NCBI GenBank assembly: GCA_026418625.1
Contig: JAOABA010000053.1
Location: forward strand, 1 to 64,000
Length of the DNA stretch: 64,000 bases
DNA from: Candidatus Kapaibacterium sp.
Lineage (GTDB): Bacteria; Bacteroidota; Ignavibacteria; Kapaibacteriales; UBA2268
Direction of reading: 5' to 3'
Every line of letters begins with the position of its first letter. The stretch's first letter is position 1. The notes under the pieces were generated by a model. The model did no database searches, was not told the origin of the DNA, and was given only the letters and a program-made list of their open reading frames with translations. Position numbers and translations under genes: made by a program. Shown here in pieces: positions 20,222-60,713 of this stretch.

Positions 20222-23200
20222 TTATGGCATCAATATGAATGGTATGATAACCATTTCGTTTCCTGCAGTAACTTTTACAATATACTGACCTGCTGCAACA
20301 TTGCTGAATGGAATTTCAACAACTTTGGTTCCAATCGGAAGCTCATTGTTGTTCATAGCAACAGTAACTTTTTCACCAGCCATATTGTAAACTTCGATAC
20401 TAAATGCTATGCTTTCGAAGACCTGAATGTTGAAGGATATTTTGTCCTTTGCCGGGTTAGGAACGATATCTCCAACTTCGAACAGTGAGTTTTGCGATAA
20501 ATTATCGCCTTCTATAGCATCTCTGAACCTTGCTGTTCTTTGGTTTGTAGGATTACCTACACCACTTCCGAAGCAGAAGTTTTCAGTTCCAAGACCGGGA
20601 TTACCATTATATCCCCAGATTCTGATATGATATCTTGTAAGAGCTGTTAACCCAGTCATTGTAAATGAATTGCTAGTTCCCCAATAAACAATTTTGTTAT
20701 TGTCAGATGGAGTTCCAATACTTGGAGCTGAACTATAATTATTATCAGCAGCATCGTATTCAACTCCTGTTTCTGGGGTTACATTTACTGCGGATGCAAC
20801 TCTTGCAACAACAAAGCTACCACTACCTGAACCACGGTTCCAATTGATAGTAAATCTATCGCTCCTAACATCATAGAAAGTAATATTAAATGCCTGTGTT
20901 GTTGGTTGTGAAGCAATAACTTTGAATTCATTGCTGACACCAGCTTCGAATGCTTCACCGCCATTATTATCAGCTTTAATTTTGACACCCACCTCACCAT
21001 TATTATTAGTGTAAGTCACAGATATTACAACCGAAGAATTGCCTTCCAAAATAGTTCCTGAACCACTAACTGTTCCTGAACCAGTATTAACGGTAATATT
21101 AATTGGTGTATCTTCGTTAACAAAATACTCTTCATCATTATCCATTGCAGTGACAGTTATATCGAATGCTTCACCAGAATTCTGGGTTCCAATTTCTGAT
21201 ATAACAAGATACGGACCTGTTACAGTAATTTCTAATGTTCTGGCTTCGCTTTCTCCACAGTCGTTACTAGTTGTAACACTCAAAATACCTGAAGTAGCAT
21301 CACCACCGAAATTTAATGTAACACTATTTCCTGAACCGTTAATAGTAACATCGCTTCCGGAGTAACTCCAATTATAAGTCATTCCCTCAATTTCAGGAAC
21401 TGTAAAGACAACTCCGTTTTGCGGTCTTGCAACAGTTGTTGTGTATTGAGTGAACTCACCGGGCATTTCTGGAGCATCAAGAACATCTACTTCAACTGAA
21501 AGGGTCTTAATACAACCATTAGCTGTAATAATATTTACGAAATATTCGCCTGAATTTATTAATTCTGCATTTTCAATAATCGGATTTTGCTCATCTGATT
21601 CAAAACCATTTGGACCAGTCCATTGATAAGCAACACCACCTTGAGCAGTGAGTTCAATTGAAGTGCCTTCACAAACTGGGCTATTGCTACCTATTGAAGC
21701 ATTTGGTAATGGATTGACCACAACTGATTTAATTCTTGGTAGTGAAGCTCCACAGGAATTTACCGCTACAACTTCCAAATCACCACTTGTTGCATTCTCA
21801 CCGAAATTAAGAATAACACTATTTCCATTTTCTAAAATCTCAACTCCTTCACCAGTAAAGTTCCAGTTATAATCAATGCCATCTACTGGAGGAACTATGT
21901 ATTCAACATTTTGAGTTCCTTGGCATACTTCATCTTCACCTGCAGTGAATTGACCAAGCTGCGATGGTGTTTCTTCAACATCAATTTCAACAATATCAGA
22001 TGTATTAACACAGCCATCTTTTGTTACTACAACTGAATAGTCTCCTTCATCAAAGACTTGTATATTCTCAATTGTATAGCTTGATTCAGTTGCTCCAAGA
22101 ATTTCGAGACTGTTGAACAACCATTGATAAGTTGCACCCTCTACTTCTACTGCATTCAAAGTAACATCAGAACCATTACAAACATTCCTGATTGGAGCTC
22201 CAAGAATTTGTGCATTAGGAAGTTCTTTTTCGATGACTGTAATTTCTCCGTTCATCGCAATTGAACAGCCTGTATTATCATTGGTTGATACTACTGTGTA
22301 AATTCCTGCTAAAACGTTATCCCAAACTAAAGCGTCACCCGTTCCAGCAAGAGCATCACCTTCAGGATTTCCATTTTTCATTAATTGATAAGTGAAACCA
22401 ATATCAGAATTATCTAATGTAAGGGTTACTCCGTTATCACCCTCACAATATTCTGTATTTCCACTTAATTCATATACTGTTGGTAATGGTAATTCATTAA
22501 TAACAACCTCACCATTCATTGTGTTTGAGCATCCTGTCAAGTCGTTATAAGCTACAACTACATAGGTGCCGCTTGTTTTATTTGTCCATACAATAGAATT
22601 ACCTGTTCCAGCTAAGGGTTGACCATCTTCAACTCCGTTTTTAAACAATTGGTAACTCACTCCGATTTCTGATGATGATAATTCTAATGAAGCATCATCT
22701 GCTCCTGCACAATAAGTCTCGTCTCCAATAAGATTAAAGGCAGTTGGATAAGCACTGACATTAATTGTAACATTATCACCTTCATCATTGTTTACACATA
22801 ATGCATCACTGACAGATATAACTTTATAAGTTAATGTTTGATCAGCATTTTCAATTACTACTTGATATTCATAATCATTGATATTATTAATTTCTTGATT
22901 TTCCTGTCCATCAAAGTAAACAATGTTAAAGGGTGCTGTTCCTGTTAAAGTGAATGTAAATATTGCGTCTTCACCTTCACACAACGGACCATTTCCAGTC
23001 AAAGTTGCTGATGGCTTATCATTTACAATAAGCTGAGCTGCTTCGGTAGCTAACCATTCAGGATTGTTGCAATTATTTTGAGCTTCGAGTCTATAATAAT
23101 AACCATCCATAGTTCCATCAATGAAACCTTCGTTAATGGTTAATGTATTTGTATTTACACCATCATAGATTTCATTATCAGGAACTACACTCCAGTTCTC

Positions 23201-26200
23201 CCCATCAGTGCTTAATGTCCATCTATATGTCAAGTTATCACCTGAGAATTCTGCTGTGAATTCTGCAGCTTGTCCTTCACATAAGATTTCGTCAATAGGA
23301 TCAAGAACAACACTTGGTGCTGATAGTAAGTTTAATAGAGCTGTATTTGATTCAATATTTGCTTCACAATTATTTGAGACAACAACCTTAAATAAGTTAC
23401 CATCCATATCAATAGTAAGATTGCTAACCTGTAGTGTAGAAGTTGTTGTTCCATTGTATATATTATTATCTTCAAGCTCGCTCCAGTTATTACCTTGATC
23501 TGTGCTAATCATCCATTGATAATCAATGGGTGTAGAACCAGTAACTTGAACAGTAAAGATGGCAGTTCCATTAACACATCCATCATAATTTTCAGGATGA
23601 CTAGCTATTACTGGAGCAGTTTTGACTGACAAAGTAGCAACATTTGAAGCAACACTTTCTTGACAACTATTTGAAGCTAAAAGCCTAAACTGATAACCAT
23701 TCATACCAACTGTTACATCAGATAAAGTCAATGTTGTAGTATTATAACCAGAATAGGTAATTCCATCCATATCCTCTTCGATATCAACAAAGTTTTGACC
23801 ATCAGTGCTTCGTTGCCATTGATATGTCATCGGGTCATCTGTTCCATTTACAGTAGTAGTGAATGAGTGTTCACCAGAATTTTCACAAACTTCTAAATCA
23901 GCAGGATGACTGACAAAAGTTGGAGGATAAAGTATTGTTAATTCGGCAACATCAGAAGCAACCCAATTTTGTGGGCAACCGCTGTTTTTGGCTAATAACC
24001 TGAACTGATAACCATCGAGACCGCTTACATCCGAAATTGTTAATTCAATTGTGTTAAAACCGCTATATATCTCTCCATCGGTGTTTTCATCAATATCTTC
24101 GAAGCCATTTCCAGCGTCTCTTTGCCACTTGTATTCATCAGCAAAGAAAGGATCTGAATAAAAGATATGGCTTGTTCCATTGCATACTTCGGCACTCTCA
24201 GGATTAGCATCTGTAAAGTCAGGTTCTGCTGGAACCAAAAGAACTGCAGGATTAGATGCTGCCCAATTTTCCGGACATCCGTTATTTTTTGCGAGAAGTC
24301 TATATTCATATCCGTCAAGTCCGGTTACATCGCTTATATGAAGTGAAGTAGTGTTAAATCCACTATAAACTCCACCATCAGTATTAGAATTAATATCCTG
24401 ATAATTTATTCCGTCATACCTTTGCCATTTAACAACATCAGCATTTGTAGGTGTTGAAACAAAGGTATGCTCTGAGCCAGCACAAAGAAGAACATCTTGT
24501 GGATGATTTCCTGTAAAATCGGGCTCTGTTGGAACTGTTAACAATGCTGATTCAGAAGCAGCCCAATTTTCTGGACAACCCATATTTCTTGCAAGAAGTC
24601 TATAAGTATAACCATCAAGACCACTTACATTCGAGATATTAAGTGAAGTTGTGTTATAACCTGAATAAACGCCATTGTCTGTGTTTGCATTAATATCAAC
24701 AAAGCCTTGTCCATTGTTTCTTTGCCACTTATATTCATCTGCATTAATGGGAGCTGATACAAACGAATGGTTGTTGCCTGAGCAAACTGTAGCATTCTCG
24801 GGTTGATTTCCTTCGAAATCTGGTTCAAGTGGAACTGTTATTGTAACTACATCAGATGACACCCAGTTCAAGGGACATCCGCTATTTCTTGCGTATAATC
24901 TAAACGAAAAGCCATCAAGACCTGTAACATCGCTAATTTCTAATGTCGGTGTGTTATAACCTGAATAAATTCCTCCATCAGTAAATTCATCAATATCTTC
25001 AAAATCATTCCCATCATTCCTTTGCCATCTGAATTCATTTGCATTAGTTGGATTTGTAACGAATGAATAGCTCGAACCTGAACAAACAACTGCATCTTCT
25101 GGTTGTCCATTAGTAAAGTTCGGTTCTGTTGGAACAGTTAATGTTGCAACATTCGAAGAAGACCATTCTGACGGACATCCATTGTTTCTTGCTAACAATT
25201 TGTATTTATACCCATTCAATCCATTAACATTCGTTATATTGAGGGATGTTGTTGTAAAGCCTGAATAAACTCCGCCATCGAGAGTTCCATTAATATCAAC
25301 AAAACCATTTCCATCATCTCGTTGCCATTTATATTGGTTTGCATTTGCTGGAGTTGATGTAAATGTATGTTCTGAACCTTGGCAAATAGTTGCATCGCTT
25401 GGATGATTACCAGTAAAGTCAGGATATAGACTAACTGTTAATGTTGCAAAGTCTGAAGGTATTCCATTTGTTGGACAATTACCTGTATTAAATGCAAGGA
25501 CTCTGAATTGATAACCATTGTAATTATTAACATTTGCAATATGTAATGTGTTGGTTGTTACATTATCAAAATCATCGTTATCCGGAACGCTACTCCATTC
25601 TGCTTGTGCATCTTCTCTAAATTGCCATTGATAGGAAGAAGCATTATTAAATTGAGCAGTAAAATTATGCTGACTATTTTCACATACACCTGCATTTTCT
25701 GGCGAACTGACAAGTGTTGGTTGGCTCACAACAGTTAAAGTGGCTTCATTAGAAGTAATAATAGTTAACGGACAAGCTGAATTCAAAGCTCTCACTCGAT
25801 ATCTATTATTATTCAAGCCTGTTACATCGGATATAACAAGAGTAGAAGTTTGTGTCCCTGAATAAACACCTCCATCACTTAAATTATTCCATCCAACGTT
25901 GAAAATCTGCCAGATATAATTTGTAGCATTGTTTGTTGTTACACTGAATTGAGTAGAACTACCATCACATACTGAGTGGCTCTGTGGCTGTGATGTAAAT
26001 TCTGGATTGGGTAAGTAAGAAATACCTACAATGTTTGATGCTATCCAATTTGTTGGACAATTGTTATTTCTTGCTATTAAGCGGAAATAATAATCAGATA
26101 GACCGCTTACATCAAGAATATCTAATGTTGTTGTGTTAACCCCATCAAAAACATCGTTGTCGGGAACATCATTCCAATTATTCTGGTTTAATGAATATTG

Positions 26201-28537
26201 CCATTTTACTTCAGTTTGTGGTGTAACTACCGCTGTAAATTGTCCAGAGCCGTAATTGCAAACTTCAATACTCTGTGGTTGTGTTGTAAACACAGGAATT
26301 GGTGTTACCGTTAATTCTGCAGAATTTGAGTTAGTCCAAGATGTTGGACAACCGCTGTTTCTGGCTAATAATCTATATTCATAACCATCAAGACCGGTAA
26401 CATCAGATATAGTCAGTGAAGTCGTATTAAATCCACTGTAAATTCCTCCGTCCGTAGTTCCATCAATATCAGCAAAACCATTTCCATCATTACGTTGCCA
26501 TTTATATTGATTTGCATTAGCTGGAGTTGAAGTAAATATATGGCTTCCTCCCTGACATACTGTTGCGTTTACGGGATGATTTCCAGTAAAGTTTGGCTCA
26601 GTAGGAACAGTAAGTGTGGCTGAATTTGATGTTACCCAAGCTGTTGGACAACCATTATTTTTTGCTAATAGTCTATATTGATATCCATTCAAGCCTGTAA
26701 CATCTGATATATTCAATGAAGTTGTTGTAAATCCGCTATAAACTCCACCATCCAAAGTTCCGTTCACATCAATAAATCCGCTTCCATCATTTCTTTGCCA
26801 TTTATAAGTATCAGCATTTGTTGGTGTGGAACTAAACGTGTGGTTTGCACCTTGGCAAACAGTAGCATTAGCAGGATGATTTCCAGTAAAATCTGGCTCA
26901 TTTGGAACTGTTAAAGTAACAATATTTGATGAATTCCAGTTCGCTGGACAACCTTGATTTTTTGCTAATAATCTGTATGTATAACCATTAAGTCCAGTAA
27001 CATTTGAAATATTTAATGAAATAGTATTAAATCCGCTATAAACTCCACCGTCAAGTGTTCCATTAATATCAACAAAACCATTGCCATCATTTCTTTGCCA
27101 CTTATATGTGTCTGCATTTAAGGGATTAGAAGTGAATGTGTGGTTCGACCCTTTGCAAATTGTTGCATCAGAAGGCTGATTTCCTGTAAAATCTGGTTCC
27201 AAAGGAACGGTTAAAAAAGCTTCATCTGATTCAACCCAATTTGTGGGACATCCTTGATTCCTTGCTAATAACTTAAATGCATAGCCATCAAGACCAGTGA
27301 CATCAGATATTTGTAATGCCGTAGTTGTATAATTTGAATATACACCTCCGTCTGTAGTTCCATCAATATCAACGTAACCATTGCCATCATTTCTTTGCCA
27401 TTTGTATTCATTTGCATTTGATGGATTAGAAGTAAACTGATATGATGTTCCATTACATACAATTGCATCTACTGGGTGATTTCCTGTGAAATTAGGCAAT
27501 TGTATAACTGTTATTGTAACTTGTGTTCTTGTATTACTTTCAAGCTGTGTTACTGTATTAAATGAAGAAACCCAGTAACTTGTATTTTGAGTTAGCTGTG
27601 GGGTTTCCCAAGTATTAACACCGTTATTAGCACCTCCGTTATCAAGTCTATTACCTCCTGATGCAGCATCATAAAATCTAAATTCATAGTTATTAACATC
27701 ATCTGGGTCAATTATTGCTGTTGTATTATAACAAATCGGTGCAGGTGGATTGCTAATTGTTGGTGGATTAGGTAATGTCGTTACAGCTTGTGAATAAGTC
27801 GCCCAGGTGCTATACCTATAGCCTGATTTAGCCCTTATCTGCCAATAATAATCTTCATCGTTGTCCAAATCTTCAATAATAAGTGGATTAGCGTCATCAC
27901 CCAAGTCTGCCGGATCATAACCTTCAATTAAATTGCTCCAAGTTGAGTTATTTGTGCCATCGAGCATAAAATCATAACCATCGAAAACGCCTGTTGGCTC
28001 TGTCCATCCAGCCTGAAATTGGATATTGGTTACATTAGAAACTGATAAATTAGTTGGTGCTTCTGGGGTAATATTAGTTGTTCTTGGATTACCAGAGCTA
28101 CCATTCGAAGTTAAATACTCTGCAGTTGAAAACCCAGTGCCATTATACTCAAAAACCTTAACAGTATAATAAGCCCCGGCTACGAGATTTGTCAAAGTAA
28201 CATATCTACCTGTGCCATCATAAACGATATAGTCATTCTGAGCACCGGAATTAATGTCTGTGCCAGAAGGACTCCCATAATTCCAGTCACTGCTCGCCTG
28301 ATAACCTGCAGAAAAATCAACTGGATTGGCTATTGTAACTGGTGTGCTCGTTGAATGCTGCGAAACAACAAATATCCTACGAGCTCCGTTACCACGAGTA
28401 ACATTTATTCTCATAGAACTTGTTGTAATACTACTGAATGTGATGTTTGTTGCTTGCACTGTTGGTGGTGCTGAATAAGCAAAATCGCTTATCAAAGCAA
28501 TCAACAAAAGCGAAATAAGAAGTTTTACAAAACGCAT
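20222..28537 (-). CDS. Giant secreted Ig-like repeat protein with T9SS sorting domain (2771 aa)
   Basis: The signal peptide (LLISLLLIALISDFAYS) is followed by an FN3-like module (PTVQATNITFSSITTSSMRI..) and a second FN3-type domain. About fifteen tandem Ig-like domains of about 100 residues come next, each with two conserved Cys (VC.G and N.GCP), KWQRNDG and YRLLA.N. Several PKD/Ig_7-like domains follow, then a second copy of the FN3-like module (TQAFNITFYDVRSDRF..), and a C-terminal type-A T9SS domain (VPNPAKDKISFNI.. NVAAGQYIVKV). It should be exported through Sec and then T9SS to the cell surface. Paired Cys suggest one disulfide per Ig unit. Role as adhesin or matrix filament is inference. 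It has its own terminator. Confidence 0.93.
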   Translation of the reverse strand: MRFVKLLISLLLIALISDFAYSAPPTVQATNITFSSITTSSMRINVTRGNGARRIFVVSQHSTSTPVTIANPVDFSAGYQASSDWNYGSPSGTDINSGAQNDYIVYDGTGRYVTLTNLVAGAYYTVKVFEYNGTGFSTAEYLTSNGSSGNPRTTNITPEAPTNLSVSNVTNIQFQAGWTEPTGVFDGYDFMLDGTNNSTWSNLIEGYDPADLGDDANPLIIEDLDNDEDYYWQIRAKSGYRYSTWATYSQAVTTLPNPPTISNPPAPICYNTTAIIDPDDVNNYEFRFYDAASGGNRLDNGGANNGVNTWETPQLTQNTSYWVSSFNTVTQLESNTRTQVTITVIQLPNFTGNHPVDAIVCNGTSYQFTSNPSNANEYKWQRNDGNGYVDIDGTTDGGVYSNYTTTALQISDVTGLDGYAFKLLARNQGCPTNWVESDEAFLTVPLEPDFTGNQPSDATICKGSNHTFTSNPLNADTYKWQRNDGNGFVDINGTLDGGVYSGFNTISLNISNVTGLNGYTYRLLAKNQGCPANWNSSNIVTLTVPNEPDFTGNHPANATVCQGANHTFSSTPTNADTYKWQRNDGSGFIDVNGTLDGGVYSGFTTTSLNISDVTGLNGYQYRLLAKNNGCPTAWVTSNSATLTVPTEPNFTGNHPVNATVCQGGSHIFTSTPANANQYKWQRNDGNGFADIDGTTDGGIYSGFNTTSLTISDVTGLDGYEYRLLARNSGCPTSWTNSNSAELTVTPIPVFTTQPQSIEVCNYGSGQFTAVVTPQTEVKWQYSLNQNNWNDVPDNDVFDGVNTTTLDILDVSGLSDYYFRLIARNNNCPTNWIASNIVGISYLPNPEFTSQPQSHSVCDGSSTQFSVTTNNATNYIWQIFNVGWNNLSDGGVYSGTQTSTLVISDVTGLNNNRYRVRALNSACPLTIITSNEATLTVVSQPTLVSSPENAGVCENSQHNFTAQFNNASSYQWQFREDAQAEWSSVPDNDDFDNVTTNTLHIANVNNYNGYQFRVLAFNTGNCPTNGIPSDFATLTVSLYPDFTGNHPSDATICQGSEHTFTSTPANANQYKWQRDDGNGFVDINGTLDGGVYSGFTTTSLNITNVNGLNGYKYKLLARNNGCPSEWSSSNVATLTVPTEPNFTNGQPEDAVVCSGSSYSFVTNPTNANEFRWQRNDGNDFEDIDEFTDGGIYSGYNTPTLEISDVTGLDGFSFRLYARNSGCPLNWVSSDVVTITVPLEPDFEGNQPENATVCSGNNHSFVSAPINADEYKWQRNNGQGFVDINANTDNGVYSGYNTTSLNISNVSGLDGYTYRLLARNMGCPENWAASESALLTVPTEPDFTGNHPQDVLLCAGSEHTFVSTPTNADVVKWQRYDGINYQDINSNTDGGVYSGFNTTSLHISDVTGLDGYEYRLLAKNNGCPENWAASNPAVLLVPAEPDFTDANPESAEVCNGTSHIFYSDPFFADEYKWQRDAGNGFEDIDENTDGEIYSGFNTIELTISDVSGLDGYQFRLLAKNSGCPQNWVASDVAELTILYPPTFVSHPADLEVCENSGEHSFTTTVNGTDDPMTYQWQRSTDGQNFVDIEEDMDGITYSGYNTTTLTLSDVTVGMNGYQFRLLASNSCQESVASNVATLSVKTAPVIASHPENYDGCVNGTAIFTVQVTGSTPIDYQWMISTDQGNNWSELEDNNIYNGTTTSTLQVSNLTIDMDGNLFKVVVSNNCEANIESNTALLNLLSAPSVVLDPIDEILCEGQAAEFTAEFSGDNLTYRWTLSTDGENWSVVPDNEIYDGVNTNTLTINEGFIDGTMDGYYYRLEAQNNCNNPEWLATEAAQLIVNDKPSATLTGNGPLCEGEDAIFTFTLTGTAPFNIVYFDGQENQEINNINDYEYQVVIENADQTLTYKVISVSDALCVNNDEGDNVTINVSAYPTAFNLIGDETYCAGADDASLELSSSEIGVSYQLFKNGVEDGQPLAGTGNSIVWTNKTSGTYVVVAYNDLTGCSNTMNGEVVINELPLPTVYELSGNTEYCEGDNGVTLTLDNSDIGFTYQLMKNGNPEGDALAGTGDALVWDNVLAGIYTVVSTNDNTGCSIAMNGEITVIEKELPNAQILGAPIRNVCNGSDVTLNAVEVEGATYQWLFNSLEILGATESSYTIENIQVFDEGDYSVVVTKDGCVNTSDIVEIDVEETPSQLGQFTAGEDEVCQGTQNVEYIVPPVDGIDYNWNFTGEGVEILENGNSVILNFGENATSGDLEVVAVNSCGASLPRIKSVVVNPLPNASIGSNSPVCEGTSIELTAQGGVAYQWTGPNGFESDEQNPIIENAELINSGEYFVNIITANGCIKTLSVEVDVLDAPEMPGEFTQYTTTVARPQNGVVFTVPEIEGMTYNWSYSGSDVTINGSGNSVTLNFGGDATSGILSVTTSNDCGESEARTLEITVTGPYLVISEIGTQNSGEAFDITVTAMDNDEEYFVNEDTPINITVNTGSGTVSGSGTILEGNSSVVISVTYTNNNGEVGVKIKADNNGGEAFEAGVSNEFKVIASQPTTQAFNITFYDVRSDRFTINWNRGSGSGSFVVARVASAVNVTPETGVEYDAADNNYSSAPSIGTPSDNNKIVYWGTSNSFTMTGLTALTRYHIRIWGYNGNPGLGTENFCFGSGVGNPTNQRTARFRDAIEGDNLSQNSLFEVGDIVPNPAKDKISFNIQVFESIAFSIEVYNMAGEKVTVAMNNNELPIGTKVVEIPFSNVAAGQYIVKVTAGNEMVIIPFILMP
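23924..25423 (-). repeat. Five tandem 300-bp Ig-domain units
   Basis: Between the PDF codon at 25423 and the PTF codon at 23923 lie exactly 1500 bp, five 100-codon units (units 8-12 of the protein) with no indel. They share TKWQR/YKWQR, GVYSGxNT and NxGCP blocks. Confidence 0.93.
26298..27497 (-). repeat. Four tandem 300-bp Ig-domain units
   Basis: Exactly 1200 bp between the start of unit 1 (PNFTGNHP, near 27497) and unit 5 (PVFTTQP, near 26297). This is a second run of the same 100-codon unit. Three more divergent units of unequal length (5-7, 25424-26297) separate the two arrays. Confidence 0.93.
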
Positions 28538-35845: not shown

Positions 35846-38800
35846 TTATTGGACTAAACGCCAAGCACCATTGCTATAAACTAACATAGCAACTGTATTT
35901 GCTGCATAGGCAGTTCCAAGAACACTGACTGCATTTCCAACATGAATATAAAGAATCTTTCCATCAAGACCCGGAGGTAAATTACCAGCTCCGATATTTG
36001 CACCACCTGTGTAATATATCACAACAGCATTGCCTCTTTGTGCTAATTCGGTTAAGTTAGCTGCAGTAGTATATGATAATTTAACACCACCTTCATTAAC
36101 ATCGAGTGCCATTGCTTGGCTTACCGCTGTTGGTGGATTAGCTAAAGGCTCACCATTGTAGTTACCAACAAATAATGTAGCGGCATCAGTTCCAGCGTCT
36201 GAACGGAATTCAGCAACATAACCATTTGTTGATGCTGGGGCTCCGTCATTGTGTGCAAATAAAACACTACCATTGCCGGCACCGTAATCTTCGAACCAAC
36301 CAGCAGGTCCATCACCACCATTTTTGCCACCATAAATTGTAGCAAAATTATTATTTATATTGTTACTTGAAATAGCAACTATTCCATTATTATTTATTCC
36401 GTTTGAATTTACATTTAATGTGGTGGTCTGACCTGAAGTCCCATTGCTGAGTGTAGTATTACCGTTTGGCACTGTGAAGTTTTGAGGATCACCAATTGAA
36501 CCAACAGGTAAAGTTGCAGTGCTATGTCTCAGATAACCACTTCCGTTTAACATTAAGTTTTCGTTGTTGGCTATTCTAACAGTTCCAGCACCAGAGAATG
36601 CACCAGTTGTTGCCTGAATGTTACCTGATGCTACAATAACACCACCGCTACCAGCTATGGTTAATCCTCCTGTGTTATTGATTGTAACACCACCAGCGCC
36701 GTAGGTATTAAGACCATCAAAATATCCTGCTCTCCAAGTATTACCCGAAGCTCCAATATCATATGTATTTGTGGCAGATGGGAATAAATGGTCTGCAAAT
36801 CTTAGACTTTGACCTGCTAAATTATTCTGAATTGTTCCATTAAGATTAACAGCATCACCAATAGCATCACCAAGATTTGATGTATTGGTAACTGTTAAGT
36901 TCACAAAATTACCATCTCCTCCAGTCAAAGTTCCGCTATAGTAAATATTTCTCCATCTCTTTGGTGTTCCATTTTCGCCTAAGTCATAAGTATTATCTGC
37001 ATCTGGAATTAAGTGCGAAATGAATTCACCGGGAACACTAATATTATCAGTATTAGCATTACCTAATGTAACATTTCCATCTAAGAATGTGTTACCAGTT
37101 ACCTGGAAGTTATCATTTACATAGACATTACCACCATTATTACCTGTAGTATTTGATATTGCTTGTTGAGCATCAATTGTGTTTTGGAAGGTTGAGGCAC
37201 CGGTAACATTCAATGTGCTGCTCAATGTAGTTGCTCCAGTAACATTTAATGTGCTTTGAAGTGCTGTTGCGTTAACAACTGTTAAAGCATCATTAACGTG
37301 AACTGCGCCACCATTGTTTCCTGTTGAATTGGATATTGATTGTTGAGCATCAATAGTGCTTTGGAATGTTGAAGCACCAGTTACATTCAACGTGCTGCTC
37401 AATGTAGTTGCTCCAGTAACACTTAGTGTGCTTTGAAGTGCTGTTGCGTTAACAACTGTTAAAGCATCATTAACGTGAACTGCGCCACCATTGTTTCCTG
37501 TTGAATTGAAAATTGATTGCTGCAAATCTGTTGTTCCTTGATGAACTGTATTTGCCTGATGAGTGACATTGTTAACTACTGTAAATAAATCATTTACATA
37601 AACAGCACCGCCGTTATTTGCAGATGTATTTACAATTTGTCCTTGTAAATCTGACTGACCTGTAACTGTTAAGCTTGAGAAGCTTGCAGCACCACCTGTT
37701 AAAGTTCCACCATAATATATGTTATTCCATCTTTGTGCAGGGGCACCTAAGTTAAAGGCAATATCAGTGTTTGGAATAATGTTTGAGTTAACATCAGCAT
37801 TAAATACTACATTATCTGTATTTGCATTACCTAAAGTAACATCTCCATCGAATTGTGCATTTGTTGTAACAACAATACCATTTCCGGCTGCACTAAATGT
37901 CTGTGTTCCAGTCCAAGTATTTGGATTAGATAAGTTAATTCCAAGAGCTGTTGCAACACCATTTCCGGTTAATGTAGCATTAATGTTGAGTGCTTGCCAA
38001 ACATTATTTCCTGCATTATTAACCAAGAATTGATTTGCAGCTCCAGTTTGAATTCTGTTAAGATTAATTGTATTTGTTGTAGTTCCAGCGTTGATAGCAT
38101 TAACGATTGAAGTTCCTGCTACAGTCTGAACGCTTCTTACCTGTGCTCTACCATTACCAGCACTTACCCAGGAAATCAATACGTCATTATTAACATCTGC
38201 GGCTGGTAAAACAACTTTATCTGCTGAATTTGTATTATCACCAAGGAAGATATTATGTTGTGGTAAAGCAAGTGTTCCGAAGATAAGACCTGCGTTTAAT
38301 GTTCCATCAATTTGAGCATCGCCAACTACTCTAAGTTCCCATTTAGGATCTGTTGGTCCGGGAATTGGCGGAGGAGTAATGTCAGCTACACCATTGATTC
38401 TTAATCTACCATGAAATCCGGGCATACCGTTAATTTCAACAGGCCCACCTGCTGATGCAGGAGGAACTAATCTTTGGTAAACACCATTTGGATTACCAAC
38501 AAAAACTTCATTCTGTCCAACAATTGTAGTAGCATGTATGGCAGAGTTTGACTGAATGGAACCATAAGTCTTTAAAGCAAGCAAGTTATTGCTATTGGCT
38601 AATGTTGCGTTAGTATTTCTAATTACAACTACTGCAGGATTATTATCAGTAAATGCAGCACCATTATTATCAAGAGCTGGTATGGCAACACCTGCATTAG
38701 TATAACCTTCGATTAACATTGATCTGCCATTTGCACCGCTGTTATTTCTAACAACTGCAACATAGTTATTATCAGTTGTTCCATTATTTGGAGCAGAAGC

Positions 38801-41800
38801 TGCAGTGAATGCATTACCTGCGGCACCATTTTGTGCTAATACGGTTGGGTTAGTTGTGCTTGTATTGAAAGCATTAACAGCTCTTCCTGTTCCTGATTGG
38901 ATATAAGCACCTTCTCCTGCACCGGCAGCATAAATAGCAGCACCCCAATCGAGTGTTGTACCGCCTGTATTATTGATATAAGCACCAACATCGGCACCGG
39001 CAACCAAAGTCGGATAAGCTGTTGTATTTACTTGTGCCAGGATACCGATATTCTGAGTACCGTTAATAGCACTAACATCAAGACCTATACCATTACCTTT
39101 ATCAACATTAGAAGCAAACCAACCAGTTCTATGAAGAAGAGTATTTGGTGTTGCAGCGGGTGTACCGGTTACGGTATTTGTAACCTTTAAGCCCCAAGTG
39201 TTATAGGGGTCAACATTATTAACTGTTTGAATAATATTAGCAGCACCTGAATTAGCATTCAACTGATTGAATGTTGTTGTAACGTTCAAAGCACCATCAC
39301 TAACATTTGTTGCTGCTGTTCTTGTAATAGCAACTGTAGCTTCACCTCTATTACCGCCATCAAATGAAACCATTGGAACACCACCGGTTCCGTCGCCGGT
39401 ATTCATATTAGCATTAATTATAGTTCCAGCTGCTGCTGCTGTGTTTTCCAATGAGAACATCGTAGTTGTATGAGCTTTAGAATATATGAATGGTATAGTC
39501 AATCCATCTTGTGCCCATTCGACTTGACCGGGAACAGCTGCCCATTTTAGTACTTGACCATCTGTTGGAGCGGTTGGACCTGATAGCTGCCAAGAGCTTG
39601 CTACGTTATCAAACCACATAATCTGACCGTGAGTGGTTCCATCAGCTAACTTGTTTAATGTAATTGATTCATTAGCTAAAGTTGGGTTTGGATAAGTTCC
39701 GGATAATACGCCACCGGCAGGATCTCCGTCGAGAACTATATTATTGGCTCCAAGAACATTACCATTTAATGTGAGGTTGCCGGTAATAGTTGTTGCTCCG
39801 GCTGCCAAAGTACCAGTTGTTGAAACGGCTTGTGAACCAAAATTCGGATTAATCTTTGTTCCGGCGATTGCTGCAGTTGGACTAACATCAGCATCAACAA
39901 TAGTTCCATCAATGATATTAGCTGAGTTAACAGAATTAGCTGCTAAATCAACATTTTGAATTGTACCGTCATCAATTTTAGCACTTGTAACAGCTCCATT
40001 TGCTATTTCTGTAGTTGTAATAGCACCTGCAGCTACGTCAAGTGGTGTATTGACAGCATTACCAGTAAATTTATTAGATTTATTGAAATCTGCCCAGTTT
40101 GAATTACCGAGATTGTCAGTAACCAAAAATTGATTGACATTAGCAGAAGGGGCAATTTTCTGAGTTGTAACTGCATTATTCTGAATCTTGGAATTTGAAA
40201 CAGAGTTATCACCTATTTTAGGATTTGTAACAGCTGCATCTTGTATCTTCGAAGTTGAAACAGAGTTATCAGCTAAATCAGCATTTTGAATACTAGCATC
40301 AATTATTTGTGTTGATCCTACAGAATTTGGTCCCATATCAACTAAAGCTATTGTACCGTCAGCTATTTTTGCACTTGTTACCGAACCATCTGCTAAATCA
40401 GCAGTAATGATAGTACCATCAGCAATTTTGAGAGATGTTACGGCACCATCAGCAATGCTTGCTGTTTGGATGAAATTGGGTTGCCAGGATGTTCCATTGA
40501 ATACATATAACATATTGGCACCAACACCTGCAGTGTTGAGTGTAACAGGTTGTGTGGCAGAACCGTTACCAATTATTGGCATAGAAGTAACAACGGTTGC
40601 TGCAGGAACTGCCCATTCCATCGATCCTGTTGTGTTATTCCATGTTAATACATAACCATTTGTTGATAAGTTAGCTGTGTTAGTTGTTTGAAGGTTGATT
40701 GGTCTAACTTTGGCTGCATTCCATTCACCAATACCGGGTGTTCCATTAAAGAAAAGAACTGCGCCATCAGCTGGAACAAAAGCTGCACTTCTATTAATAA
40801 GAATTGGATCAGCTACAGAACCTGTGCCTTGAAGTGAAGGACCGCGCACATTTACAACTGGTGTTCCCCATTCAAATGCCTGACTTGTAGCATTCCAAAC
40901 TGGAGAGGTTTTGTCAACAGCTGGTGCTGAATAAGTTAATCTTTCTGGGGCTGTTGCATCAAATGCATAATATAAAAATGATCCATTCCATGTTGCACTA
41001 CTTGGCTTTCCAGTTGGAACACCTGAAACTTTTGTAGCAAATAATTCAGGAACACCAACTGTGTTTGGTTGAATTTGCAAGTTATTGAATAAACCTTGAA
41101 CATCACCAAGAGTAGCACCACCGGGTTGCCAATTATTTAATGTAGCATTATATATATATGCTTGACCGGTTTGTGTTGGTTGAGCTGATAGAGGAATGTT
41201 CCAAAGTCTTCTAACTTGGTTATCATTGAAAGCACCAACAACATCACTTGCTAATGTAGTAGCAACCCATTGATTAGTGACTGAGTTATACATATAAACT
41301 TGACCGTTAGTTGGGGCAGTAGCATTAATTGGAACATTTCTCAAACCACCAACCTGTGGATTATGATAAGTTCCATAAAGATCACCACCTGCAGGGTCTC
41401 CCCAATTAACGAACCAGTCGTGAACTTGAGTGCTTAAATCTTCAAGTAATATTGTTCCATTAACAATTTTGTCAGCTGTAACTGAATTTGGAGCAAGTTT
41501 GCCGTTTGTTACGGATAAATCAGCAATTTTTGCAGTTGTAACTGCGCCATCGGCTAATTTGATTGTTGTAACTGCACCATTGAAAATTCTGTCAGTTTTT
41601 ACTGCACCTGGAGCAATTAAAGGATCAGGATATACACCAGTTAAGTCACCGCTAGCAGGACCACTTGGTGGAACTGTAACGTTTGGAGCGAGTTTGTCTT
41701 GTGTAATTGAACCTGGTGTGATATTTCTAATAACTGCTGATGGTTTAATTGTTGGATTTGGATATGAACCATCAAGATCACCACCTGCAGCACCTCTTGG

Positions 41801-42289
41801 GAATGCTTGAACATTGGGATCCAATTTTGCCTGTGTAACTGCACCATCACGAATGGATGGGTTTGGATAATCACCTGTTAAATCACCACCTGCAGGACCA
41901 TCTGGAGGTGCGTTCAATGCTTTTAAAGCATATGGAACAGGTGTTAAAGCTGTTCTTGGCATTGGATTTCCGTTACCTACGGTAATTTGTAGCCAATACT
42001 GTTTGTCGAATGGTAAATTCAATGGATTTTGTTTGCCAAGATAAACATTGACATATCCATTAATTGCAGAAACTTCCTGCACTTCTAACCAGATCGGTGA
42101 TCCACCGAATTCTTGCTCATAAATAGCAAATGTCATAGGAACCGATTGATTTAAAACTGCATTGTTGTTATCACGCACAACACCTTGCCAAGATAATTGT
42201 TTTGGAAGCTGTGCGAAAACGTTGCTAAACGGAGTAGCAATCAAACTTATCAGAACTATTAGGCTGAGAAGTAAAACCTTCTTCATCAT
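35846..42289 (-). CDS. Giant exported fibre-like repeat protein (2147 aa), no T9SS domain seen
   Basis: The signal peptide (LLLSLIVLISLIATPFSNVFA) is followed by a compact N-terminal domain (LPKQLSWQGVVRDNNNAVLN.. YALKALNAP) that occurs at the start of many large FCB-group secreted proteins. GGDLTGxYPNP-type motifs and DGAVTxAKIxDGTI-type short repeats come next, reminiscent of phage tail-fibre and trimeric beta-structures. Further on are Asn/Thr/Gly-rich beta-helix-like stretches (LNVTGATTLSSTLNVTGAS). It ends in NTVAMLVYSNGAWRLVQ with no recognisable sorting domain. Probably a surface or extracellular filament. ATGATG start with GGAG upstream; a 193-residue T9SS protein gene precedes it by 70 bp. 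Confidence 0.88.
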   Translation of the reverse strand: MMKKVLLLSLIVLISLIATPFSNVFAQLPKQLSWQGVVRDNNNAVLNQSVPMTFAIYEQEFGGSPIWLEVQEVSAINGYVNVYLGKQNPLNLPFDKQYWLQITVGNGNPMPRTALTPVPYALKALNAPPDGPAGGDLTGDYPNPSIRDGAVTQAKLDPNVQAFPRGAAGGDLDGSYPNPTIKPSAVIRNITPGSITQDKLAPNVTVPPSGPASGDLTGVYPDPLIAPGAVKTDRIFNGAVTTIKLADGAVTTAKIADLSVTNGKLAPNSVTADKIVNGTILLEDLSTQVHDWFVNWGDPAGGDLYGTYHNPQVGGLRNVPINATAPTNGQVYMYNSVTNQWVATTLASDVVGAFNDNQVRRLWNIPLSAQPTQTGQAYIYNATLNNWQPGGATLGDVQGLFNNLQIQPNTVGVPELFATKVSGVPTGKPSSATWNGSFLYYAFDATAPERLTYSAPAVDKTSPVWNATSQAFEWGTPVVNVRGPSLQGTGSVADPILINRSAAFVPADGAVLFFNGTPGIGEWNAAKVRPINLQTTNTANLSTNGYVLTWNNTTGSMEWAVPAATVVTSMPIIGNGSATQPVTLNTAGVGANMLYVFNGTSWQPNFIQTASIADGAVTSLKIADGTIITADLADGSVTSAKIADGTIALVDMGPNSVGSTQIIDASIQNADLADNSVSTSKIQDAAVTNPKIGDNSVSNSKIQNNAVTTQKIAPSANVNQFLVTDNLGNSNWADFNKSNKFTGNAVNTPLDVAAGAITTTEIANGAVTSAKIDDGTIQNVDLAANSVNSANIIDGTIVDADVSPTAAIAGTKINPNFGSQAVSTTGTLAAGATTITGNLTLNGNVLGANNIVLDGDPAGGVLSGTYPNPTLANESITLNKLADGTTHGQIMWFDNVASSWQLSGPTAPTDGQVLKWAAVPGQVEWAQDGLTIPFIYSKAHTTTMFSLENTAAAAGTIINANMNTGDGTGGVPMVSFDGGNRGEATVAITRTAATNVSDGALNVTTTFNQLNANSGAANIIQTVNNVDPYNTWGLKVTNTVTGTPAATPNTLLHRTGWFASNVDKGNGIGLDVSAINGTQNIGILAQVNTTAYPTLVAGADVGAYINNTGGTTLDWGAAIYAAGAGEGAYIQSGTGRAVNAFNTSTTNPTVLAQNGAAGNAFTAASAPNNGTTDNNYVAVVRNNSGANGRSMLIEGYTNAGVAIPALDNNGAAFTDNNPAVVVIRNTNATLANSNNLLALKTYGSIQSNSAIHATTIVGQNEVFVGNPNGVYQRLVPPASAGGPVEINGMPGFHGRLRINGVADITPPPIPGPTDPKWELRVVGDAQIDGTLNAGLIFGTLALPQHNIFLGDNTNSADKVVLPAADVNNDVLISWVSAGNGRAQVRSVQTVAGTSIVNAINAGTTTNTINLNRIQTGAANQFLVNNAGNNVWQALNINATLTGNGVATALGINLSNPNTWTGTQTFSAAGNGIVVTTNAQFDGDVTLGNANTDNVVFNADVNSNIIPNTDIAFNLGAPAQRWNNIYYGGTLTGGAASFSSLTVTGQSDLQGQIVNTSANNGGAVYVNDLFTVVNNVTHQANTVHQGTTDLQQSIFNSTGNNGGAVHVNDALTVVNATALQSTLSVTGATTLSSTLNVTGASTFQSTIDAQQSISNSTGNNGGAVHVNDALTVVNATALQSTLNVTGATTLSSTLNVTGASTFQNTIDAQQAISNTTGNNGGNVYVNDNFQVTGNTFLDGNVTLGNANTDNISVPGEFISHLIPDADNTYDLGENGTPKRWRNIYYSGTLTGGDGNFVNLTVTNTSNLGDAIGDAVNLNGTIQNNLAGQSLRFADHLFPSATNTYDIGASGNTWRAGYFDGLNTYGAGGVTINNTGGLTIAGSGGVIVASGNIQATTGAFSGAGTVRIANNENLMLNGSGYLRHSTATLPVGSIGDPQNFTVPNGNTTLSNGTSGQTTTLNVNSNGINNNGIVAISSNNINNNFATIYGGKNGGDGPAGWFEDYGAGNGSVLFAHNDGAPASTNGYVAEFRSDAGTDAATLFVGNYNGEPLANPPTAVSQAMALDVNEGGVKLSYTTAANLTELAQRGNAVVIYYTGGANIGAGNLPPGLDGKILYIHVGNAVSVLGTAYAANTVAMLVYSNGAWRLVQ
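37135..37510 (-). repeat. Near-identical 177-bp tandem repeat
   Basis: Blocks such as gtgctgttgcg (37261 and 37438) and caaYgtgctgctc (37211 and 37388) recur at exactly 177 bp (59 codons). Two units are almost identical at DNA level, much closer than the rest of the protein, indicating recent duplication or gene conversion. Confidence 0.9.
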
Positions 42290-59629: not shown

Positions 59630-60058
59630 TCATAAATCGTGAATTACATATTTCACAACCCCTTGAATCTGAAACTCAATGTAATCTTCTATTTTTCTTG
59701 TAACAAATTTTTTATTAGCTGAGACAAGCAAAACTTCTCCATCTTTCTCGACATAAGTCTTAACAGTCAATTCACCGTTCAATGAAGCGATTACAATTTT
59801 TCCTGAACTTGGCTTTTCGCTTCTGTCAACAACTAAAATATCTCCGTCAAAAATATTCTTACCAATCATACTTTCGCCTGAAACTCTTACAAGATAGGTG
59901 TTTTCCGGATGTGGTGCTAACATTCGGCTTAAATCAAGCTCTGATTTATCATTTTCCAAACCCTTTTTTCTGTTTGGGTATGTTTTGGCAGTAATCAGCT
60001 CGCTCTCAAATTCAAATCTCAATTGACGACTAAGGTCAACAACCTTTCTTGCTTTCAT
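59630..60058 (-). CDS. UmuD-like S24 protein with intact Ser-Lys dyad, no cleavage dipeptide
   Basis: The 142-residue protein aligns with UmuD/LexA-type S24 proteins: LDLSRMLAPHPENTYLVRVSGESM contains Ser63, and NGELTVKTY contains Lys100. The 37-residue spacing equals that of UmuD Ser60-Lys97. The N-terminal arm has KTYPNR where UmuD has the cleaved CG-FPSP, so no Cys-Gly or Ala-Gly bond is present. UmuD is an SOS-induced accessory of DNA polymerase V that is activated by RecA-stimulated self-cleavage. No umuC is near. It follows its paralogue by 15 bp on the same strand. Confidence 0.85.
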   Translation of the reverse strand: MKARKVVDLSRQLRFEFESELITAKTYPNRKKGLENDKSELDLSRMLAPHPENTYLVRVSGESMIGKNIFDGDILVVDRSEKPSSGKIVIASLNGELTVKTYVEKDGEVLLVSANKKFVTRKIEDYIEFQIQGVVKYVIHDL

Positions 60059-60073
60059 AGTCTGATTTTATAC

Positions 60074-60499
60074 TTATAACGAATGGATTACTTTTTTGAC
60101 AACTCCAATTAACTGATGATTGATGAATTCCTCTCGCATTAATGGCATAAAGGACAAATTTGCAGAAATAAGGTATTTTTCATTGTCAATCTCCCTAAAT
60201 ATCTTAACAGTCATCTCACCATTAACCGAAACAATAACGTATTTTCCATCATCTGGTTCGATGCCTGTATCAACTATTAATATGTCACCATTTTTAATTT
60301 CTGCCCCTTTTCCGAAATCTCCCGTAACTCTGGCAAATAATGTTGTTGCTGGATGTTCTATAAGAAATTCATTTAAATCAACGACTTTATCAACATCCGG
60401 TTCAATAACATTAGGATAACCTGCGGGAACCGACATAGTAAATAAAGGTATTTCAATTCCTGCCTTTGAGCTGATATCCAAAAGCTCAACATAATTCAT
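60074..60499 (-). CDS. UmuD-like S24 protein with Phe in place of the catalytic Ser
   Basis: I use the ATG at 60499; the TTG 12 bp upstream overlaps the GGAG ribosome site. 141 residues. It resembles UmuD along its length: IPLFTMSVPAGYPN at the cleavage region (Ala26-Gly27), VDLNEFLIEHPATTLFARV, and NGEMTVKIF with Lys99. At the nucleophile position the sequence is TGDFGKGAE (UmuD SGDSMIDGG), giving Phe62; Phe62-Lys99 keeps the 37-residue spacing. It therefore has the cleavable bond and the Lys but cannot attack itself. First gene of a two-gene unit with the catalytic paralogue. Confidence 0.85.
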   Translation of the reverse strand: MNYVELLDISSKAGIEIPLFTMSVPAGYPNVIEPDVDKVVDLNEFLIEHPATTLFARVTGDFGKGAEIKNGDILIVDTGIEPDDGKYVIVSVNGEMTVKIFREIDNEKYLISANLSFMPLMREEFINHQLIGVVKKVIHSL

Positions 60500-60713
60500 A
60501 ATAAACTCCAAAAAAATTAAGAACCCCCCAGTTGAAGTTTTTAAAAATAAAATTTAATTTGAAAATTTCCTAATTTTTTTTGAGTCCTATTTTGCAAGGC
60601 TATGTAAAAACGAAAAAAAAAATTTCCTTTGTTACTCTGTATGACTTTCTGCGGTCCCTACCAGAACAAAATATAAAGAGAATCCAAAGCGATTAAATAT
60701 TACCCAATTAATA

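Follow-up and report, generated by a model that had tools for sequence, protein, structure and literature searches.

Adjacent UmuD-like genes in a Kapaibacterium lineage carry the cleavage site and the catalytic dyad on separate proteins, suggesting a split UmuD-type switch

The stretch of 64,000 nucleotides analysed here (the window; contig JAOABA010000053.1 of the Candidatus Kapaibacterium sp. assembly GCA_026418625.1) contains two adjacent genes on its minus strand that encode small S24 proteins resembling UmuD. The upstream gene, termed A (positions 60074–60499, 141 amino acids (aa)), has kept the cleavage site and lost the nucleophile, whereas the downstream gene, termed B (positions 59630–60058, 142 aa), has kept the Ser-Lys dyad and lacks a cleavage site. 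We consider it probable that A and B form a heterodimer and that B cleaves A in trans within this complex; the pair would thus be a UmuD-type switch split between paralogues, with A as the putative substrate subunit and B as the putative protease subunit. This reading is supported by the sequence anatomy of both proteins, by their co-conservation, by a repeated one-way loss of residues, by purifying selection and by co-evolution. From these observations we infer the heterodimer, the cleavage in trans and a trigger by RecA.

Both proteins match Peptidase_S24 (PF00717; cut-off 23.3 bits), B with 89.1 and A with 60.6 bits, and share 40% identity with each other. UmuD and UmuD′ are the top relatives of both in the Protein Data Bank, and the Foldseek matches, UmuD′ and LexA, are the same as those of the sequence searches. 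The NCBIfam UmuD model NF007621 (cut-off 110) is missed by both (B 105.8, A 88.7). A and B each consist of an S24 domain at UmuD length without a DNA-binding domain, and no other domain was found. Correspondingly, neither contains the N-terminal winged helix-turn-helix (HTH) of LexA (TIGR00498, 47–69 versus a cut-off of 111) nor an N-terminal DNA-binding extension of the UmuDAb type, as their arms align end to end with UmuD. The alignment with UmuD and the residue numbers proposed in an initial annotation of the window proved correct, and the codons were confirmed on the DNA sequence. In A, the dipeptide Ala26-Gly27 (codons at 60419–60424, minus strand, as are all codons given here), equivalent to Cys24-Gly25 of E. 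coli UmuD, is located within the loop VPAGYP (residues 24–29). Phe62 (TTC, 60314–60316) occupies the position of the nucleophile Ser60, and Lys99 (60203–60205), equivalent to Lys97, is kept. In B, the nucleophile Ser63 (59870–59872) within the motif GESM and the general base Lys100 (59759–59761) are both present, and residues 24–30, AKTYPNR (59969–59989), which align to the cleavage loop, contain no Ala/Cys-Gly. The arm of B also shows a conserved F-E-A-P motif at residues 15–21 (Glu in 35/36), where UmuD has the TFPLF segment; this motif may be a docking site for A, RecA or the clamp.

The initial annotation had called for a survey of relatives in which such complementary defects might be co-conserved, and the pattern recurs in 38 genomes. 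The survey of the family comprised 54 genomes (Candidatus Kapabacteria), and all genomes are metagenome-assembled genomes (MAGs) or similar assemblies; the named relatives of the pair are Candidatus Kapabacteria, Kapaibacterium and 'Ignavibacteria' MAGs. Searches with a profile built from A cleanly distinguish A proteins (E < 1e-52) from canonical UmuD (E > 1e-46). With this profile, A was found in 37 of the 54 family genomes and in G044, which belongs to another family of the same order, and none was found outside the order at E 1e-44 among the 395 phylum genomes sampled. B is present in all 38 A-bearing genomes and adjacent to A in 36. In G004 and G028, two genomes of one genus, both genes are still present, B being located on another contig than A, and in G077 B is broken by a contig end. 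On complete contigs, neither gene occurs in a genome that lacks its partner; a solitary gene is what the initial annotation had regarded as incompatible with a split pair. Two apparent cases of B alone (G012 and G013) were rejected as B fragments at contig ends, and a fragment of G008 that was scored as B corresponds to canonical UmuD. An assembly artefact is ruled out, because the pattern recurs in too many independent assemblies. An explanation by the operon or neighbourhood was likewise rejected, as no neighbours are conserved except rnhA, which is found upstream in 8 genomes, and so was a phage origin, since a viral scan yielded weak single S24 matches and no pairs.

All 38 A proteins and all 29 canonical UmuD proteins contain the cleavage motif [VI]x[AC]GxP, yet none of the 36 full-length B proteins does. 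In contrast, the motif GxSM at the nucleophile occurs in 36/36 B and 29/29 canonical UmuD proteins, and in 1/38 A proteins. In E. coli numbering, V22, A24, G25 and P27 of the A loop are invariant (38/38), as are S60, M61, V96 and K97 of full-length B (36/36), in which the loop positions are scattered. Position 60 of A is occupied by Ala (10), Asn (8), Ser (8), Met (4), Asp (3), Glu (3) or Phe (2), and position 97 by Lys (26) or Arg (12). The nucleophile is therefore gone from 30 of the 38 A proteins, and its six different replacements exclude both a substitute nucleophile and cis chemistry at this position in these 30 genomes. The reversed pattern, namely A without the site and B without the dyad, was not seen among the surveyed pairs. 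Taken together, these counts strongly support the division of labour put forward in the initial annotation, and a cleavable bond in the downstream gene, which would have argued against it, is not found as a full motif in any B.

The invariance of the A loop in spite of the dead active site in the same protein implies that something still reads this loop. The obvious candidate is B, since it is always present, usually adjacent, catalytically intact and free of a cleavage site, and since it co-evolves with A. According to the proposed mechanism, A would act as the substrate or signal subunit, providing an arm with an Ala-Gly bond and no nucleophilic attack of its own, and B would act as the protease subunit, with a full Ser-Lys site and no cleavable bond in its arm. 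Both would assemble into a UmuD-like heterodimer with the arm of A in the active site of B. Upon docking of the RecA filament formed on single-stranded DNA, B would cut A after Ala26 in trans, and the product, A′ together with intact B, would be the counterpart of UmuD′2. In E. coli, UmuD cleaves itself via Ser60-Lys97 on the RecA filament, and in heterodimers the arm-truncated UmuD 18 efficiently cleaves the variant UmuD S60A in trans (PMC5342242). The conservation of the loop despite a dead site could also mean that A is a pseudo-substrate, the loop of which would block the active site of B while remaining uncut and thereby maintain a stable inhibited complex, as binding and cutting are indistinguishable by sequence alone. 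We regard this as very unlikely, since the scissile Ala-Gly and the P2′ Pro are invariant (38/38), whereas a mere plug could do with, or even benefit from, a residue that resists scission, and since B would have no need to keep its Ser-Lys invariant if it did not cut.

The history of both genes is in line with cleavage of A by B. In a maximum-likelihood tree, which is unrooted apart from a midpoint root and the bootstrap of which is not fully settled, A (100/85), B (100/99) and canonical UmuD (91/94) each form one clade. G044 is placed at the base of both the A and the B clade, and A is nearer to canonical UmuD than to B. B is a separate, older-looking branch, and neither protein has the other as its closest relative. 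Hence, of the scenario of duplication followed by division of labour that had been proposed for the pair, the division stands, but a recent tandem duplication is too simple, because A groups with canonical UmuD. As G044 contains a complete A together with a site-less B, the data suggest that the site of B disappeared earlier than the serine of A. The serine of A was lost at least four times by parsimony, or nine times if regain is disallowed; the youngest loss is found in genus g20, where GESLRHF (G020) faces GDALRHF (G034, G065, G066) in near-identical proteins. All 12 losses of Lys in A occurred in copies without Ser, versus none in the 8 Ser-bearing copies, and this order, Ser before Lys, is the one expected if B performs the chemistry. 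The Ser-less A is under purifying selection: for G000 and G001, dN is 0.06 and dS 1.6 for A, compared with 0.10 and 1.6 for B, with dS near saturation and the ratio accordingly rough. Moreover, A and B are correlated in their pairwise distances, at 0.68–0.78 (12–16 genomes; the rows are not independent; Mantel p 0.0005), as opposed to 0.12–0.50 for A and canonical UmuD and 0.06–0.51 for B and canonical UmuD (likewise 12–16 genomes). The correlation between A and B supports a partnership and their co-evolution.

Several observations weigh against the cleavage of A by B, or at least against B being obligatory for it. Eight of the 38 A proteins keep both Ser and Lys (G017, G020, G021, G026, G035, G044, G076 and G077). 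These copies span five genera of the family as well as the outgroup G044, and they could cleave themselves. We read them as earlier stages; still, they weaken the strict claim that activation always needs the heterodimer, for which the initial annotation had itself named a retained Ser in the upstream gene as contrary evidence. An Ala/Cys-Gly is found somewhere in residues 1–50 of 11 of the 36 B arms; three of the 11, all from genus g20, fit [AC]GxP, but no copy has the flanking Val/Ile. Many pair-bearing genomes further encode a canonical UmuD or other small S24 proteins as possible cutters of A. For a read-through fusion of A and B, which share one frame in the window and in 14 relatives, AlphaFold reached a predicted template modelling score of 0.43 with more B rows and 0.67 with more A rows, without an inter-domain error map and with poorly predicted arms; these models carry no weight for or against a heterodimer.

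The Ser-bearing copies and the patchy distribution of Ser loss across the tree would likewise fit an asymmetric drift, in which A is an ordinary UmuD that forms homodimers or mixed dimers, loss of its Ser is near-neutral because other S24 proteins cut it in trans, and no dedicated heterodimer exists. This explanation appears highly improbable to us. The pattern is one-way, as A never loses the site and B never loses Ser or Lys, and this, together with the full co-occurrence and the distance correlation of A and B, calls for a dedicated partner.

Alternatively, A might be cut by canonical UmuD or another S24 protein, while B would be a separate, non-cleavable manager and its adjacency to A merely historical. 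Canonical UmuD is present in 26 of the 37 pair-bearing family genomes, other small Ser-Lys S24 proteins are found in some pair genomes (G020, G034), and trans cleavage by UmuD-like proteins is known (PMC5342242). However, 11 pair genomes lack canonical UmuD, 10 of these with a Ser-less A (e.g. G018 and G034), B is present in every genome with A, and the co-evolution of A and B exceeds that of A and canonical UmuD, which makes this alternative quite unlikely. Independently of the pair, we noted small stand-alone S24 proteins with Ser-Lys, without a cleavage site and without HTH (L055 2844–3263, L056 30–464, L076 2973–3422 and L060 2942–3340). It is possible that they represent further enzyme-only S24 proteins and alternative cutters of A.

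If B cuts A, the question arises which effector receives the product. Canonical UmuD tracks Y-family polymerases, which are present in 37 of 38 genomes with UmuD versus 8 of 16 without it (p = 9e-5). The A-B pair does not, as 30 of 37 genomes with the pair and 15 of 17 without it encode such a polymerase (p = 0.70; 54 genomes). Seven pair genomes lack Y-family polymerases and contain one DnaE only. In G018, G020, G028, G034, G065 and G066, the pair occurs in the absence of both canonical UmuD and Y-family polymerases, again with a single DnaE per genome. As G018 and G020 are ~99% complete, these absences are not due to missing contigs alone. A second C-family polymerase was rejected as the effector, since each of 10 genomes tested has one DnaE. 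Given the missing association with Y-family polymerases and the pair genomes devoid of them, the pair is not simply polymerase V (Pol V), which lends support to the earlier suspicion that its output may differ from that of Pol V. UmuC might be the effector where it is present. Because the pair persists in genomes without any Y-family polymerase, another effector would be needed there, for instance the replicase or the clamp; UmuD contacts both. The DNA-binding domain of LexA was found in just 5 of the 54 family genomes. In G006 (contig C9, L057), a DinB-type Y-family polymerase gene lies ~0.6 kb past B on the opposite strand, an arrangement that is not conserved elsewhere.

The pair could nevertheless be a plain accessory of Pol V, in which A′-B replaces UmuD′2 on UmuC and fills the two non-equivalent UmuD′ places, with one arm in UmuC and the other free. 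Models of Pol V show the two UmuD′ arms in very different contexts (PMC11791011; PMC12926913), which a heterodimer could exploit; UmuC is encoded in most pair-bearing genomes, and in genus g24 UmuC occurs without canonical UmuD. We consider this option unlikely, because the pair is unrelated to Y-family polymerases whereas canonical UmuD is strongly related to them, and because of the seven pair genomes mentioned above that have only DnaE.

The expression of A and B may be controlled separately in many lineages. In 20 of 35 A-B spacers, the motif GGCAY-N5-TTG, mostly CGGCAYAATAWTTG, follows right after the stop codon of A (0.29 expected); examples are L037 (1886–1955), L038, L040, L046, L061 and L065, where the spacers are longer than the 15 nt of the window. 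The element has the GG-N10-GC spacing of sigma-54 promoters (-24/-12), the last C being kept in some copies only. A stricter version of the motif occurs 7–14 times per genome versus 1–3 times in a reversed control, and the motif also precedes genes for a BadF-type ATPase, outer-membrane-type proteins and others. Because of this enrichment and the presence of RpoN in all 13 genomes tested, B probably has its own sigma-54-like promoter in many lineages, as judged from the motif. Some copies of the element are near-palindromic, e.g. TGGCA..TGCCA in G032, and it is possible that the element is an operator. In the window, the spacer (60059–60073, minus strand, in frame with both genes) has shrunk to 15 nt and the element is gone. 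Upstream of A, a run of at least five G is found within 120 nt in 24 of 38 cases, at -9 to -76, compared with 0 of 41 for B and 0 of 26 for canonical UmuD. In the window this run is GGGGGG (60524–60529, minus strand), 25 nt before the ATG of A and the sole six-G run in the 64 kb. A G run at -10 could serve as a ribosome-binding site. Tentatively, and with less confidence than we place in the cleavage of A by B, we propose a two-gene heterodimeric damage switch with separately controlled subunits, which would be LexA-free and in several lineages free of Y-family polymerases, and which would convey the RecA signal to a target other than Pol V.

The host genome comprises 3.3 Mb in 58 contigs. It encodes a complete canonical UmuD (SAGFPSP, GDSM, Lys) on the separate contig C26, and UmuC, the sole Y-family polymerase found there, on contig C52 downstream of a rarA-like gene. 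Thus, the earlier statement that neither umuC nor dinB is present in the window holds, with UmuC and canonical UmuD of the host on two further contigs. Two HTH-linked S24 loci are located on C33 and C58. The locus on C58 (G000, L003 820–1899) and its counterpart in G033 (L070 2342–3420) combine an HTH gene, an S24 protein with Cys-Gly and Ser-Lys, and an S24-like protein of 214 aa in which Asp takes the place of Ser, the order of the two S24 genes being reversed compared with A and B. As it is near-identical in two genera, this pair is probably mobile. In Deltaproteobacteria bacterium OFTM105 (L119 2951–4306), a complete UmuD is preceded by a second UmuD of 122 aa, which lies 565 nt upstream, has kept Ala-Gly and Ser and carries Val in place of Lys; this shorter protein is perhaps an independent, decaying substrate-type UmuD. 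The window further contains two very long open reading frames at 20222–28537 and 35846–42289 on the minus strand (2771 and 2147 aa).

UmuD is the textbook example of a self-cutting switch, and it has long been asked why it functions as a dimer able to cut either in cis or in trans. In the A-B pair, evolution seems to have repeated the separation experiment by placing the cutting site and the cutting residues on different subunits; the dead half of each subunit decayed several times independently and the working half remained unchanged. The pair offers natural single-function subunits on which RecA docking, trans cleavage and the asymmetry between subunits could be studied. It also suggests that a UmuD-type switch exists in bacteria that have neither Pol V nor LexA.

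Among the known systems, UmuDAb of Acinetobacter, a genus without LexA, is a UmuD turned into a LexA-like repressor and hence, like A and B, a UmuD derivative with a changed role in the absence of LexA. The non-canonical LexA proteins of Bacteroidetes (PMC8565304) likewise represent S24 switches in LexA-less relatives of the Kapabacteria lineage. They are, however, repressors of the HTH-S24 type that unite site and dyad in a single protein, and Kapabacteria are not mentioned in that report. A and B are closest to UmuD/UmuD′ of E. coli Pol V and its MucA-type relatives, with which they share the S24 fold, the length, the arm, and the positions of the loop and of Ser-Lys. The cleavage between subunits in trans that we propose for A and B is known from UmuD of Pol V as well, but there the site and the dyad reside in one protein, whereas in the pair they are distributed over two proteins encoded outside a umuC operon. 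In the open-access literature searched, we encountered no description of a UmuD that is naturally split or paired; the chemistry is known, and the natural two-gene arrangement appears to be new. The nearest parallel is the engineered combination of UmuD S60A and UmuD 18 (PMC5342242), in which, as in A-B, a protein with an intact arm and a dead site is cut by an active site on a protein without a usable arm. That combination is a laboratory construct, whereas A-B is natural and the arm of B is full-length with its own FEAP motif.
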